Shown: positions 3,950 to 45,587 of the stretch, one piece after another
Position numbering within the stretch: the first letter of the stretch is position 1
Layout of the letters: every line of letters begins with the position of its first letter
From: Candidatus Zixiibacteriota bacterium
GTDB taxonomy: Bacteria; Zixibacteria; MSB-5A5; DSPP01
Assembly (NCBI GenBank): GCA_022614805.1
Contig: JAKEHY010000023.1
Location: 1 to 64,000 of the forward strand
Direction of reading: 5' to 3'
DNA length: 64,000 bases
Notes under the pieces: generated by a model
Seen by the model: only the letters and a program-made list of their open reading frames with translations
Database searches by the model: none
What the model was told of the DNA's origin: nothing
Position numbers and translations under genes: made by a program

Positions 3950-5307
<1,358 letters not shown>

Positions 5308-5311
<4 letters not shown>

Positions 5312-7350
5312 AAAAAGCTCTGGGGCCGGCCTTTCTTTTCTTCTTTTTCTTTCTGGTCTATCTCGTTTCCGCCGCCCCTTCGGTTTTCTGGTGGGATTCG
5401 GGCGAGCTGGTCGCCAACGTGCGCACGCTCGGGGTGCCCCACCGCCCCGGCTTTCCGCTCTACGTTCTTTTGGCCAAAATCTTCAGCTATCTGCCGATAG
5501 GGAATTTCGTCTTCCAGCAGAATCTATTCTCCGGTTTCTGCGGGGCTTTGGCTTTGGTTTTCTTCCATCTCGCGCTGGTGCGGTTTCTGGGGCGCCAGAA
5601 TGACCTCTTGGGAGGCTCGGCGGCGAGGCGGAACTTGGTGGCCTTTTTCACCACCCTCGCGGTCGGTTTCACCTTCACTTTCTGGATACAGGCCGTCCGG
5701 GCGGAGGTGTATACTTTGGGGGCTTTTCTTTTCACCTTCTCGTTTTATTGTTTTATGCGGGCGACCTCGCCTTCCGCACCGACGCGACAAGGAGCGGGTG
5801 CGGGGTATTCATCGCTGCCTGAACCGTACGCCCGCATCAAGCAGGCCCTCACTTCCGATACAGAGGCGGGGAATGATTGGCCCGCCGTTATCACGGTCGG
5901 AAACCACCGGACCGCCCGCTGGTTCTGGCTCGGGATTTTTGCCGCGTTTTTGGGATTGGGAAACCATCACGTCACCTTGCTGGCGACCTTCCCATTTTTG
6001 TTCGCCGTCGCCGGGCCGGCCACTTTTGGCGGCTTGAGTTTAAAAAAGTGGGTGGGGGTATTCTTCCTCTTCCTTCTCGGAGTTTCCACCTATCTCTATT
6101 TGCCGGTGCGGGCCTGGTCGCAGCCCTTCTTCAATTGGGGCGGGCCGTCCGGTTTTTCTTCCACCGCCAATCTGGTTCTGGCCACCGATTCGTTTAAGAC
6201 CGTTTCCCTTTCCGTTACCGAAACCTTCTTCAAGATGCATCGGCTTTTGTCCTTGCTCTTCGACCAGCTGGGCATCGGGCTTTTCTTTTTCGCCTTTGGC
6301 GGGCTTTTGATTCTCCTGTTTGCCAACAAGAGCTGGTTCTGGAAAATGGCGCTTCTTTTGGTCGGGAACCTTCTGGTCACCTCTCTTCTGGCGGCGGAGG
6401 TCATTCCGGACAATCCGGATTTGCACGGCTATCTGGTCTTTTCTCTTTTCGCGCTGGGGCTTGGCATAGCCGTCACCATCGCCGCCTTCTTCGGCGTGGT
6501 GGAGCGGGCCGCCGGCGCCGTCTCCAACTTTCTGGTCGGTTTCGCCCGCGTCGGGCTGGCGGCCCTTTTCCTTTTGTTCAGCCTGATTCCCTGGACCTTC
6601 TCGCGCCCCTACTGCGACCTTTCCGAAAACCGCATCGCCTTGAAAATGGCCCAGGAGGCCCTTTCCCCCGTGCCGCCGGGCGGGGTGGTTTTTCTCGACT
6701 CCCCGGCGCTCGACTTTGTCCTGCGCGGCGTCCAGTACGGGGAACTCTGGCGGCGGGACGTCGTGGTGGTGAACCGGGCGTTTCTGGCAGCCGATTGGTA
6801 TCGCAAAAGTCTGGTTGAAAACTTCCCCCGGCTCGCCACGGTTTTTTCCTCTGTGCCTAAGAAAAAGGACCCGGATTCGTTTTTCCGGCTCTGGGCTTCC
6901 CGTCTAAAGCAAAAGAAGGTGCCCATATTCGTGGAGTTCACCGAGCGGGACCGTGAGTTGGTCGAGCGGCTGCAACCGACCGGCTTTTTGTTTCAGCTTA
7001 TAGACACGGCGTTCGTTCTGGATACGGTCGCCGTCGAGCAGCAGCTAATGTGGGAAGTGGCGAATTTGTGGACGGAAGACGACCGGGTGGTGCAAAACGA
7101 CCCGCAGGCGGTCAAGATGCTGGTTTTGTATCTCTACCGCTCCGGTTTGTACTACGAATGGCGCGGCGCCAAGAAGAAGGCCTTGAGCCGTTTTCAAAAG
7201 ACTGTTGCTTGGGGGGAGAAGGGGGAAGAGGTGCAAAAACGGATTCTAAAGCTGGAAAAAGAAATAACCCTTGCAGAACGCAAGAAAACCGGCTCGGTCC
7301 CAATAGCCGTTTCCGAGCCCAAGAAGAGCCGCGGGAAGCTAAGTCGTTGA
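5308..7350 (+). CDS. DUF2723 membrane glycosyltransferase-like protein (paralogue A)
   Basis: A 680-residue polytopic membrane protein. After the first membrane segment comes the DUF2723 hallmark Trp-Trp-Asp-Ser-Gly-Glu-Leu, then Leu-Gly-Val-Pro-His-Arg-Pro-Gly-Phe-Pro-Leu-Tyr, Gln-Ala-Val-Arg-Ala-Glu-Val-Tyr and Leu-Gly-Asn-His-His. The family includes human TMEM260, a protein O-mannosyltransferase, so a GT-C-type transfer of a lipid-linked sugar to an exported protein is plausible. Its start ATG overlaps the regulator's stop (ATGA), so the two are co-transcribed. About 45 residues near 155-200 look like a low-complexity insertion between membrane segments. The C-terminal 200 residues are soluble. 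Confidence 0.8.
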
Positions 7351-7916: not shown

Positions 7917-8540
7917 TTAGGCCAATTCGCGCCAGAAGTTTTCTTTGACCCTTCGGGCATCTGGATGGGATAAGGTTGCCGGGTTTTCTATGTCCAGGTG
8001 CCAGTTCAATGGGTTGTCCATGATGTATTGCCGGATTTTGTTCAGGGATTTTTCGCTGCGGATGACGTGCTCGTAATAATTGCGCTGCCAGACCGGCAAG
8101 CCGGGGGTTCGGCAAAATTGATTGATTAATTTTGCCGTTTGATATTTGTAATAGGCCACGATTTTTCCCAACGTCGGTTTTGGTTTTTGTAGGGGCGGGG
8201 TTTCCCCGCCCATTTCCCTACCCACGGGCGAGGTGACCTCGCCCCTACAGGTGAATTCGTTGTGGTTTGCGGTTATAACGACAATTCCGTGCAGATGGTT
8301 CGGCATCACCACAAATTCATACAGTTGCACGTTCCCGAAATGTCTTGAAATCTCCAACCAATAATCCCGGACAATTTGTCCAACCTTTGATAATTCCATC
8401 GCTCCATTTCTAATTTCACCAAATAAACATTTCCTGTTCTTTGTGCAAATGGTGATAAAATAGGCCCCTTCGCCGGAATAATCGTATTCCCGTAGCCGTA
8501 TGGAGCGTCGTTGGGGTCTGGGTTGGTCCATTTTTGACAT
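7917..8540 (-). CDS. REP-associated tyrosine transposase (RAYT, Y1 family)
   Basis: A 207-residue Y1/IS200-like transposase of the RAYT group. It opens with Arg-Leu-Arg-Glu-Tyr-Asp-Tyr and Tyr-Phe-Ile-Thr-Ile-Cys-Thr. The metal-binding HUH-type motif is Met-Pro-Asn-His-Leu-His-Gly, and the catalytic tyrosine region is Trp-Gln-Arg-Asn-Tyr-Tyr-Glu-His-Val-Ile-Arg. Met at 8540 is chosen because the longer frame (to 8714) is only read-through of palindromic repeats. About 20 residues between the HUH motif and the tyrosine helix are encoded by a copy of the local palindrome (8189-8248), so the gene carries the repeat it presumably mobilises. RAYTs are domesticated enzymes that act on REP palindromes. 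Confidence 0.85.
   Translation of the reverse strand: MSKMDQPRPQRRSIRLREYDYSGEGAYFITICTKNRKCLFGEIRNGAMELSKVGQIVRDYWLEISRHFGNVQLYEFVVMPNHLHGIVVITANHNEFTCRGEVTSPVGREMGGETPPLQKPKPTLGKIVAYYKYQTAKLINQFCRTPGLPVWQRNYYEHVIRSEKSLNKIRQYIMDNPLNWHLDIENPATLSHPDARRVKENFWRELA
8189..8248. repeat. Double palindrome inside the RAYT gene (GTAGGGGCG family)
   Basis: A 60-base unit of two palindromes, GGGGCGGGG/CCCCGCCC and GGGCGAGGT/ACCTCGCCC, bounded by GTAGGGGCG and CGCCCCTAC. It is nearly identical, in reverse orientation, to 8624-8683. It lies in frame within the transposase coding sequence. Confidence 0.9.
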
Positions 8541-8623: not shown

Positions 8624-8683
8624 GTAGGGGCGAGGTAACCTCGCCCGGTGGTGGGGAAATGGGCGGGGAAACCCCGCCCCTAC
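8624..8683. repeat. Double palindrome upstream of RAYT (GTAGGGGCG family)
   Basis: A 60-base unit matching the reverse complement of 8189-8248 at nearly every position. With that copy it brackets the RAYT start, giving a REPtron-like arrangement: a transposase gene next to facing palindromes. Confidence 0.9.
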
Positions 8684-39791: not shown

Positions 39792-40325
39792 ATGGAAGGC
39801 GCGGACGTTTTAGGGATTGATCCCGGCATCGGAGCCACCGGCTACGGCCTTGTTCGGTTTGTAGGGGCGCATCGCGATGCGCCCTTTTTGCTTGAATGCG
39901 GTGTTTTAAAAACCTCCCCCAAGAAAAAAACCCCCGAACGCCTGCGCGAAATTTACGATTTGGTTCTGGGGTTGATTCAAAAACACTCTCCACGAGCATT
40001 AGTTGTTGAGAAGGCGTTTTACGGCAAGAGCGTTTCGGTCGCTATGACCATCGGGCAGGCCCGCGGCGCGGCGATTTTGGCCGCCGCCAATCTGGGACTG
40101 CCGGTCTATGAATTCTCCGCCCGCGAGGTCAAGCAGGCCGTCACCGGCAACGGCGCGGCGGACAAAACCCAGGTTCAATATATGATTGGACAACTTTTGA
40201 GTTTAAAAAGCCCGCCCGACTCCCCCGACGCCTGCGACGCTCTGGCCGTGGCCTTAACCTATCATTTCCGTTCAAAAGTACCCGTAGGGGCGGGCCTTGT
40301 GTCCGCCCGTTCGACAAAATTATGA
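39792..40325 (+). CDS. ruvC: Holliday junction resolvase RuvC with two palindrome insertions
   Basis: A 177-residue RuvC: Gly-Ile-Asp-Pro-Gly near residue 8 with the first catalytic Asp, Val-Val-Glu-Lys-Ala-Phe with the catalytic Glu, and Asp-Ala-x2-Asp-Ala-Leu-Ala near the end. It cuts four-way junctions together with RuvAB. Two copies of the GTAGGGGCG palindrome are read in frame. One (39861-39884) adds Val-Gly-Ala-His-Arg-Asp-Ala-Pro in a surface strand after Leu-Val-Arg-Phe; the other (40284-40309) encodes the C-terminal Val-Gly-Ala-Gly-Leu-Val-Ser-Ala and has replaced or extended the native end. All catalytic carboxylates remain, so activity is likely kept. Confidence 0.93.
   Translation: MEGADVLGIDPGIGATGYGLVRFVGAHRDAPFLLECGVLKTSPKKKTPERLREIYDLVLGLIQKHSPRALVVEKAFYGKSVSVAMTIGQARGAAILAAANLGLPVYEFSAREVKQAVTGNGAADKTQVQYMIGQLLSLKSPPDSPDACDALAVALTYHFRSKVPVGAGLVSARSTKL
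39861..39884. repeat. In-frame palindrome in ruvC, copy 1
   Basis: A 24-base unit, GTAGGGGCGCATCG facing CGATGCGCCC, exactly 8 codons, read Val-Gly-Ala first. Confidence 0.9.
40284..40309. repeat. In-frame palindrome at the ruvC 3' end
   Basis: GTAGGGGCGGGCC...GTCCGCCCGTTC, read Val-Gly-Ala. It lies 13 bases before the ruvA start codon. Confidence 0.75.
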
Positions 40326-41040: not shown

Positions 41041-42267
41041 ATGACCGACCTTAAACCGCACGACCGCTACACCACCCCCTCCGCTTTGCCGGGCGAACGT
41101 GATTTCGACGAATCCCTGCGCCCCTCCCGCTTTGCCGATTTCGTGGGACAGGGGAAAACCATCGAAAATCTAAAGGTCTTCATCGCCGCCGCCCAAAAAC
41201 GGGGAGAAGCGCTCGACCACTGCCTTTTCTACGGCCCGCCGGGTTTGGGCAAAACGACTCTGGCCCGCATCGTCGCCGCCGAACTGGGCGTCGGCTTCAA
41301 AAGCACCTCCGGCCCGGTTATGGAACGGGCGGCCGATTTGGCCGGCATTTTGACCAATCTGAACGAGCGGGAGGTTCTCTTCATAGACGAAATCCACCGC
41401 TTGAATCATGTGGTCGAAGAATATCTCTACTCGGCAATGGAAGATTATTCACTCGACATCATAATCGATAAAGGCCCCGCCGCCCGCTCGGTCAAGCTCC
41501 CGCTCAAGCGCTTCACTTTAATCGGCGCCACCACCCGTGCCGGGCTTTTGACTTCCCCTCTGCGGGCCCGTTTCGGCGTGGTCGGCCGGCTGGATTATTA
41601 CACGAGCGAGGATTTAATCCGCATTCTGGAGCGCTCCGCCCGCATTTTGAAAATCGAGCTGACCGCCGAAGGCGCCGAAGAAATCGCCCGCCGTTCCCGC
41701 GGCACCCCCCGTATCGTCAACCGCCTCCTCCGCCGCGTCCGCGATTTCGCCGACGTAGGGGCGATTCACGAATCCCCCGCGTCAGATTCACGTTTAGCCC
41801 CCCAGCCACAGGGTTCTTCTCGGGTAACCCCCCAGCCCCCGCTGGGGGGAAAATTCGTAGGTGCGATTCACGAATCCCCCTCATCCAACCCCGTAGGGGC
41901 GACCGGCGGGTCGCCCACTTCCAAATCCGTAGGGGCACGGCACGCCGTGCCCGCGCCCCTGCCCATCGACAAAGACCTCGCCCTTCACGCCCTTCAACGC
42001 CTGGACGTGGACGAACGCGGCCTGGATGAAATGGACAAAAAAATAATGGAAGTGGTCATCGGCAAATTCAAAGGCGGCCCGGTCGGCATCTCGGCATTGG
42101 CCGTGGCGGTCGGCGAGGAAGAAGACACCATCGAGGAAATCTACGAACCGTTCTTGATTCAAGAGGGCTTTTTGGACCGTACCCCCCGCGGTAGAATGGC
42201 CACCTCCAACGCCTACAAGCACCTCGGCCTCAAAGCCCCGGAGCTTTCGCAGAAGGAGCTATTTTAG
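41041..42267 (+). CDS. ruvB: Holliday junction helicase RuvB with a 70-residue repeat-derived insertion
   Basis: A 408-residue RuvB (usual length about 340). AAA+ motifs are intact: Walker A Gly-Pro-Pro-Gly-Leu-Gly-Lys-Thr-Thr near residue 65, Walker B Phe-Ile-Asp-Glu-Ile-His, and the sensor/Arg segment Gly-Ala-Thr-Thr-Arg-Ala-Gly-Leu. After Arg-Arg-Val-Arg-Asp-Phe-Ala-Asp, about residues 239-308 are encoded by four 24-base palindromes and intervening repeat DNA. The protein then resumes with Asp-Lys-Asp-Leu-Ala-Leu and a normal winged-helix domain. The insertion sits in the linker between domains 2 and 3 and is rich in Gly, Pro and Ser. TATATT at 41027-41032 is a likely -10, 8 bases before ATG. 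Confidence 0.95.
41755..41952. repeat. Cluster of four in-frame palindromes in ruvB
   Basis: Units of exactly 24 bases at 41755-41778, 41857-41880, 41893-41916 and 41929-41952. Each begins GTAGG(G/T)GC and is read Val-Gly-Ala. Between the first two lies a different repeat with CCCCCCAGC/GCTGGGGGG inverted arms (41828-41849). Confidence 0.93.
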
Positions 42268-44402: not shown

Positions 44403-45587
44403 ATGAACCTCTCTGAATTCGACTTTTCAGTCCCGGCCGAGCTTATCGCCAAGCACCCCTTGAAAAATCGGGATGGGTGCCGGCTTTTGGCTTTGGAAAA
44501 AACGACCGGCCAAATGGCGCACCGCCAATTTTCGGATGTTCTCGAATATCTCCAGCCCGGCGACGTTCTGGTTCTAAACGACGCCAAGGTGAACAAATCC
44601 CGCTTCTTCGCCACCCGCCTCACCGGTGGCAAGGTGGAGGTGCTTCTCTGCCGCCCCATTTCCCCACCCCAGGGCGAATGCCATTCGCCCTTACGAAAAA
44701 ACAATTCTCCAGGTTCCGTAGGGGTGACCGGCGGTCGCCCTTTGAAAGAGTTTTGGGAGGCGATTATTTCCCATTCCTCTCGCGTGAAGGAAGGGGAATT
44801 TTTAACCCTGAACGGAAATGGTTCTTGTTCCCCTCCCCGTGTCGGGGAGGGGTTATGGGAGAGGTCCGGTTTTCGCATCCTCTTCAAACAAGAAGGCCGC
44901 GCCATCGTGGAAATCGTAGGGGCGAACGGCGTTCGCCCAATTTCCGACATCTTTGAAAAATACGGCACCGTCCCAATCCCGCCCTATCTCGAACGCCCCG
45001 CCGAAAAAGAAGACGAAGAAGATTACCAAACCGTTTTCGCCAAAACTCCCGGTGCTTCCGCCGCCCCAACCGCCGGTCTGCATTTCACGCCCGAACTCTT
45101 GGATAAAATCAAGACCAAAGGGGTGGAAATTGTTTATTTGTCGCTTTTGGTCGGCCCTGGCACGTTTGAACCGATTCGCACGGAGGATATTTCCCAACAC
45201 AAAATGCACAAAGAATACTTCGAAATCGGAGAGGAAACCTGCGCCAAAATCAACGCCGCCAAAAAATCCGGCAAAAAAATCTGGGCCGTCGGCACCACCG
45301 TCGTCAAAGCCCTCGAAACAGCATGTAGGGGTTTGATTAATCAAACCCCTACCGTAGGGGCGAACGGCGTTCGCCCCTTCTCCGGCGATTCCGACCTCTT
45401 CATCCACCCCCCCTTCGATTTCAAAATCGTCGATGGCCTAATCACCAATTTCCACTGGCCCCGCTCCAGTTTGATTCTTTTGGTCGCCGCCTTCGCCGGC
45501 AAAGACCAAATCCTATCCGCCTATAACGAAGCCATCGCCCAGCGCTACCGCTTCTTTTCCTACGGCGACGCAATGCTGATTTATTGA
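44403..45587 (+). CDS. queA: S-adenosylmethionine:tRNA ribosyltransferase-isomerase with palindrome insertions
   Basis: A 394-residue QueA (E. coli 356). The family signatures are intact: Val-Leu-Asn-Asp-Ala-Lys-Val near residue 57, Tyr-Gln-Thr-Val-Phe-Ala, Ala-Ala-Pro-Thr-Ala-Gly-Leu-His-Phe near 220, and Ile-Thr-Asn-Phe-His-Trp-Pro near the end. It builds epoxyqueuosine on tRNA. Extra segments correspond to repeat units at 44670-44695, 44718-44740, 44828-44863, 44916-44938, 45325-45352 and 45354-45377, all read in frame. Two of them encode the identical string Val-Gly-Ala-Asn-Gly-Val-Arg-Pro. First gene of an eight-gene run through cysS. Confidence 0.93.
   Translation: MNLSEFDFSVPAELIAKHPLKNRDGCRLLALEKTTGQMAHRQFSDVLEYLQPGDVLVLNDAKVNKSRFFATRLTGGKVEVLLCRPISPPQGECHSPLRKNNSPGSVGVTGGRPLKEFWEAIISHSSRVKEGEFLTLNGNGSCSPPRVGEGLWERSGFRILFKQEGRAIVEIVGANGVRPISDIFEKYGTVPIPPYLERPAEKEDEEDYQTVFAKTPGASAAPTAGLHFTPELLDKIKTKGVEIVYLSLLVGPGTFEPIRTEDISQHKMHKEYFEIGEETCAKINAAKKSGKKIWAVGTTVVKALETACRGLINQTPTVGANGVRPFSGDSDLFIHPPFDFKIVDGLITNFHWPRSSLILLVAAFAGKDQILSAYNEAIAQRYRFFSYGDAMLIY
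44670..44938. repeat. Four in-frame repeat insertions in the N-terminal half of queA
   Basis: 44670-44695 (CAGGGCGAATG/CATTCGCCC), 44718-44740 (GTAGGGGTGACC/GGTCGCCC), 44828-44863 (family 2, CCCCTCCCC/GGGGAGGGG) and 44916-44938 (GTAGGGGCGAAC/GTTCGCCC). No frame disruption or stop results. Confidence 0.88.
45325..45377. repeat. Two adjacent in-frame palindromes in queA
   Basis: 45325-45352 is a perfect 28-base palindrome (GTAGGGGTTTGATT on each strand). 45354-45377 is a 24-base GTAGGGGCGAAC/GTTCGCCCC unit. Together they add about 18 residues between the conserved Leu-Glu-Thr-Ala and the final domain. Confidence 0.9.

Follow-up and report, generated by a model that had tools for sequence, protein, structure and literature searches.

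In-frame GTAG-tagged REP palindromes in the lid loop of RuvB from a Candidatus Zixiibacteriota bacterium

In the window, i.e., the whole stretch of 64,000 nucleotides that was analysed, ruvB occupies positions 41041..42267 on the forward strand and encodes 408 amino acids in a single frame that is open throughout. A first-pass annotation of this DNA had reported four 24-base palindromes within the gene, all read in the same phase as Val-Gly-Ala, plus another inverted repeat. We found all four palindromes at the place described, each 24 nt long and starting with GTAGG[G/T]GC, and located the additional inverted repeat between copies 1 and 2. The features of the gene are as follows.

41041..42267, + strand: ruvB with a 69-residue segment (residues 240-308), from Pfam matches, the alignment of relatives and Foldseek
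41755..41778, + strand: GTAG REP copy 1 (GTAGGGGCGATTCACGAATCCCCC), read VGAIHESP; near twin with an intact palindrome at G000:C19:50161
41828..41849, no strand assigned: C-rich palindrome without GTAG, CCCCCCAGC-CCCC-GCTGGGGGG, an inverted repeat within the insert
41857..41880, + strand: GTAG REP copy 2 (GTAGGTGCGATTCACGAATCCCCC), read VGAIHESP; near twin with an intact palindrome at G000:C19:50161
41893..41916, + strand: GTAG REP copy 3, with a different stem, read VGATGGSP; near twin at G000:C19:72777
41929..41952, + strand: GTAG REP copy 4, with a third type of stem, read VGARHAVP; identical 24-nt copy at G000:C13:108851

Neither the four REPs nor the C-rich inverted repeat brings a stop into the translation, and the start-to-start spacings of the REPs (102, 36 and 36 nt) are all multiples of three, in agreement with the annotated lack of frameshifts and stops. 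The description of the repeats as tandem did not hold: the four copies have three kinds of stem, similarity is confined to copies 1 and 2 (90%, with a mispair in each), and Tandem Repeats Finder reported no array in ruvB. A tandem array of one unit was therefore rejected, although local duplication may be the source of copies 1 and 2. The part of the insert at 41779-41856 is not GTAG-REP. Further copies of REP 4 with one to three mismatches occur in the genome, and palindromes similar to the C-rich one are few elsewhere. Under a Markov model, about 3.5 occurrences of GTAGGNGC were expected per 64-kb window on both strands, whereas four were observed within 200 nt of ruvB; the cluster is thus not a product of chance.

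Pfam matches on the encoded protein comprised RuvB_N (residues 26-184), AAA_lid_4 (187-241, model positions 1-55 of 74) and RuvB_C (325-395). The insert had been placed in the linker between domains 2 and 3, but the AAA_lid_4 match reaching residue 241 puts it inside the lid domain, which it splits at a loop joining two of the lid helices. When RuvB was aligned with its relatives from other genomes (n = 29), 28 of them had five residues between a conserved Val and Ile, where this protein has 69 (Val239 to Ile309), and the GTA of REP 1 is the codon of the conserved Val239 itself. At the same place, the congener G001, the only one available for comparison, has 14 residues starting with GACGTAGGGGC. 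The annotation had given about 70 residues encoded by the repeats; the net gain is about 64 residues relative to most relatives and about 55 relative to G001. A non-repeat version of the segment in a closely related genome had been named as evidence against the insertion; in this closest relative, most of the repeats are absent, and its short insert, judged by eye, resembles a decayed REP, so that the comparison spoke for the insertion. The DNA 5' of the site is about 88% identical between the two genomes. Occupation before the split from G001, or else two hits, is therefore the probable history of the site.

Apart from the insert, RuvB is intact, as the annotation had stated, with matches to all three Pfam domains. 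Comparison of the ruvB core with that of G001 gave a dN of 0.027 and a dS of 0.505 (dN/dS of about 0.05), a ratio that points to strong purifying selection. In the AlphaFold model, the RuvB domains are confident, the flanks of the insert have pLDDT values mostly above 85, and residues 242-300 fall below 50 and are without secondary structure; the insert is thus predicted to be a disordered surface loop. The top Foldseek matches were RuvB structures with target TM-scores of up to 0.97, and, judging from sequence and model, RuvB apparently still works despite the insert. One full-length match to ruvB was found in the bacterium's own genome, the other match shown being weak, and a search of genome contigs with ruvB gave best segments of 50-55% identity, mostly from Bacteroidota and Ignavibacteria. 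The helicase had also been called essential; this is the lone full-length ruvB of the genome, yet ruvB is dispensable in Escherichia coli, and the term goes too far.

GTAG-tagged REPs have been described as an unpaired GTAG head followed by a palindrome of 20-40 nt, mostly intergenic and occurring singly, as dimers or in groups (Di Nocera et al. 2013, PMC3733652). The four 24-nt units in ruvB each have an unpaired GTAG 5' of an imperfect palindrome in this size range, many copies are dispersed through the genome, mainly between genes, and the ruvB palindromes are GTAG-tagged REPs. In 0.85 Mb of the genome, GTAG was followed by a hairpin in 4.07% of cases compared with 0.24% overall, which is 17 times the mean and rank 1 among the 256 tetranucleotides. 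REPs of the main families numbered 188 in 1.24 Mb, 150 of them outside genes as predicted by a simple, home-made finder, although 84.5% of the sequence is coding. About half of the genome, itself an incomplete assembly, was sampled in 20-kb stretches that were partly picked for matches to GTAGGGGC, and densities were therefore taken from genome-wide pattern searches. The count of the repeat family proposed in the annotation gave 105 matches to GTAGGGGC-N5-12-GCCC in the bacterium's own genome compared with 9 in a reversed control; G001 is similarly rich, and other members of the class range from none to about 190. Two other patterns were discarded: a first, CCTAC-closed palindrome pattern was too strict and its matches were almost all due to chance, and exact GTAGGGGC alone was nearly as frequent in the reversed control (217) as in the genome (237), so that it is the hairpin requirement that separates signal from background. 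Among the reading phases of the REPs, the one containing TAG was never open, while the other five were open in 65-93% of REPs, a property by which these palindromes are helped to survive in frame.

The dispersal of the family bears on how the insert was built. It could have grown from one REP by local slippage or tandem duplication, without repeated transposition, and the mispaired base shared by copies 1 and 2 together with the recurring 36-nt spacing would fit such growth. Copies 3 and 4, however, differ in their stems, and each is matched by an exact or near twin at another place in the genome; the spacers between the copies are unrelated to each other; we regard local growth as an unlikely account of the insert.

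A putative source of mobility lies in the same window.

7917..8540, - strand: RAYT gene with two REPs arranged head to head (8189-8211, +; 8226-8248, -), a dimer that follows the HUH motif directly and in frame

Four genes of the genome passed the cut-off of the NCBIfam model NF047646 (REP-associated tyrosine transposase) with 151, 137, 126 and 90 bits, and counting the window gene there are at least five RAYTs. The window gene fell short of the cut-off (62 versus 80), apparently because the REP dimer splits the match. More REPs lie beside it at 8624, 8683, 8746 and 8773. In the congener, a RAYT gene (L167, ~5150-5745) has a REP dimer at the equivalent position, where the stems are different ones; in each species the internal stems resemble those of the REPs beside the same RAYT. 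With GTAGGGGC REPs both inside and beside it, the window RAYT appears to be the best candidate for the cognate enzyme of the GTAGGGGC family. On contig C4, another RAYT gene (L006, ~1250-2035) is flanked on both sides by several GTAG palindromes with GTAGGCGGCATTTTAATGCCGC and GTAGGCCGGGTTT, a family unlike the REPs of ruvB.

In-frame repeats were also found in two genes close to ruvB.

39861..39884, + strand: GTAG REP inside ruvC, read VGAHRDAP, three residues more than in other families (alignment)
40284..40308, + strand: C-terminal GTAG REP of ruvC, read VGAGLVSA, at a position common to the congener
44403..45587, + strand: queA, with repeats in four loops (alignment of relatives, DNA, REP scan)
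44671-44694 (inverted, GTAA variant) and 44718-44740: repeats of queA loop 1
44830-44852: repeat of queA loop 2, a CCCCTCCCC palindrome
44916-44938: repeat of queA loop 3
45325-45352 and 45354-45376: repeats of queA loop 4

The palindromic repeats of queA are of at least three kinds, and two of the four loops hold different repeats in G001. Several of the loops with in-frame REPs thus carry other REPs in the congener, so that they look like landing sites that are repeatedly used and tolerated. The 24-nt ruvC REP at 39861-39884 is identical in the congener, although the DNA around it shows 87% identity; this may be due to constraint, to conversion or to chance. One palindrome, GTAGGGGTTTGATTAATCAAACCCCTAC, is read in frame as GLINQTP in the genes for a SpoU rRNA methylase (L153, 849-876) and an alcohol dehydrogenase (L194, 15062-15085) as well as in queA (45325-45352). 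A gene for a TMEM260-like protein also bears REPs. A specific bias toward nucleic-acid genes was considered, but we make no such claim, as ruvC, ruvB and queA are located near one another and the alcohol dehydrogenase and TMEM260-like genes carry REPs too.

These genes raise the question of whether the REP-encoded loop is functional, tuning the activity of RuvB or the binding of partners in line with the speculation of Di Nocera et al. The REP-tagged genes sampled include ruvB, ruvC, queA, rRNA methylase and RAYT genes, a bias to repair genes was noted earlier (PMC3733652), and the unchanged ruvC REP would agree with selection. Against this, the insert of RuvB is not conserved between the congeners (14 versus 69 residues), the REPs that fill the loops of queA and of the RAYT differ between the two species, an alcohol dehydrogenase gene bears a REP as well, and the loop in RuvB is predicted to be disordered; a functional loop therefore seems quite improbable. 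Still further from what we would expect is a broader version, in which loops of nucleic-acid enzymes are preferred REP sites and the REP loops of RuvB, RuvC, QueA and RAYT alter the action of these enzymes and perhaps couple the processing of Holliday junctions to the movement of REPs. That the insert is an assembly artefact or chimera is scarcely credible: short repeats can be misassembled, but the frame is open through all four elements, and in the independent congener genome the beginning of a REP falls on the identical base and REPs occupy the corresponding sites of ruvC, queA and RAYT.

We thus favour, with a probability of roughly 86%, the reading that a cluster of GTAG-tagged REPs landed in the lid loop of RuvB, probably moved by RAYTs, and is tolerated and translated as about 64 extra disordered residues. 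The idea of the first-pass annotation that selfish palindromes sit in frame in a conserved gene is well supported by the near-empty site in relatives, the dispersed copies, the constrained host gene and the disordered insert. RAYTs, which are single-strand, IS200/IS605-like HUH enzymes, would probably move REPs to many places, and most insertions in genes would be lost by selection. REPs would survive where they keep the frame in tolerant, flexible loops, and loops once occupied may become lasting safe sites in which REPs are gained, lost and exchanged over time. Under this scheme, we infer that movement of the ruvB cluster was driven by RAYTs, that the insert is translated and that it is neutral for RuvB.

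In-frame insertion of REPs is already known, and ruvB is a large, well-documented case of it. Intragenic REPs of the GTAG and CGTC types, some of them in frame, have been reported, including grouped inserts encoding 43-82 amino acids; they are biased to replication, repair and tRNA-modification genes, and flexible loops were suggested as tolerated sites, with speculation on function (PMC3733652). The main text of that paper makes no mention of RuvB or RuvC. The REPs described here share with that set the head, the palindrome, the intergenic majority and the in-frame cases in DNA-repair genes, and differ in that two congeners were compared and found to hold different REPs in corresponding loops. 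In the RAYT/REPtron system, Y1 HUH transposase genes are accompanied by REPs, and the REPs and the RAYT coevolve (Nunvar et al. 2010, PMC2817692). REPs accompany RAYT genes here too, but the window RAYT additionally bears a dimer of REPs within its reading frame, with species-specific stems like those of the REPs beside it. The parallel with Rickettsia palindromic elements drawn in the annotation stands as an analogy, since both are mobile palindromes found in frame in conserved genes and compatible with protein function. It does not extend to the elements themselves: those of Rickettsia are units of about 150 bp with a conserved peptide, whereas the ruvB units are GTAG-headed REPs that measure 24 nt and vary in both stem and peptide, and their genome also encodes RAYTs.

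The present case contributes the comparison of corresponding loops in two congeners and a RAYT with REPs in its own coding sequence. The insert in ruvB illustrates clearly how selfish DNA can turn into part of a protein, here a conserved motor of DNA repair. The different REPs of the congeners allow a direct test of a question dating from 2013, namely whether repair genes tagged with REPs have survived by chance or have been selected, and the RAYT with REPs in its own frame offers a useful system for studying the coevolution of REPs and their transposase.
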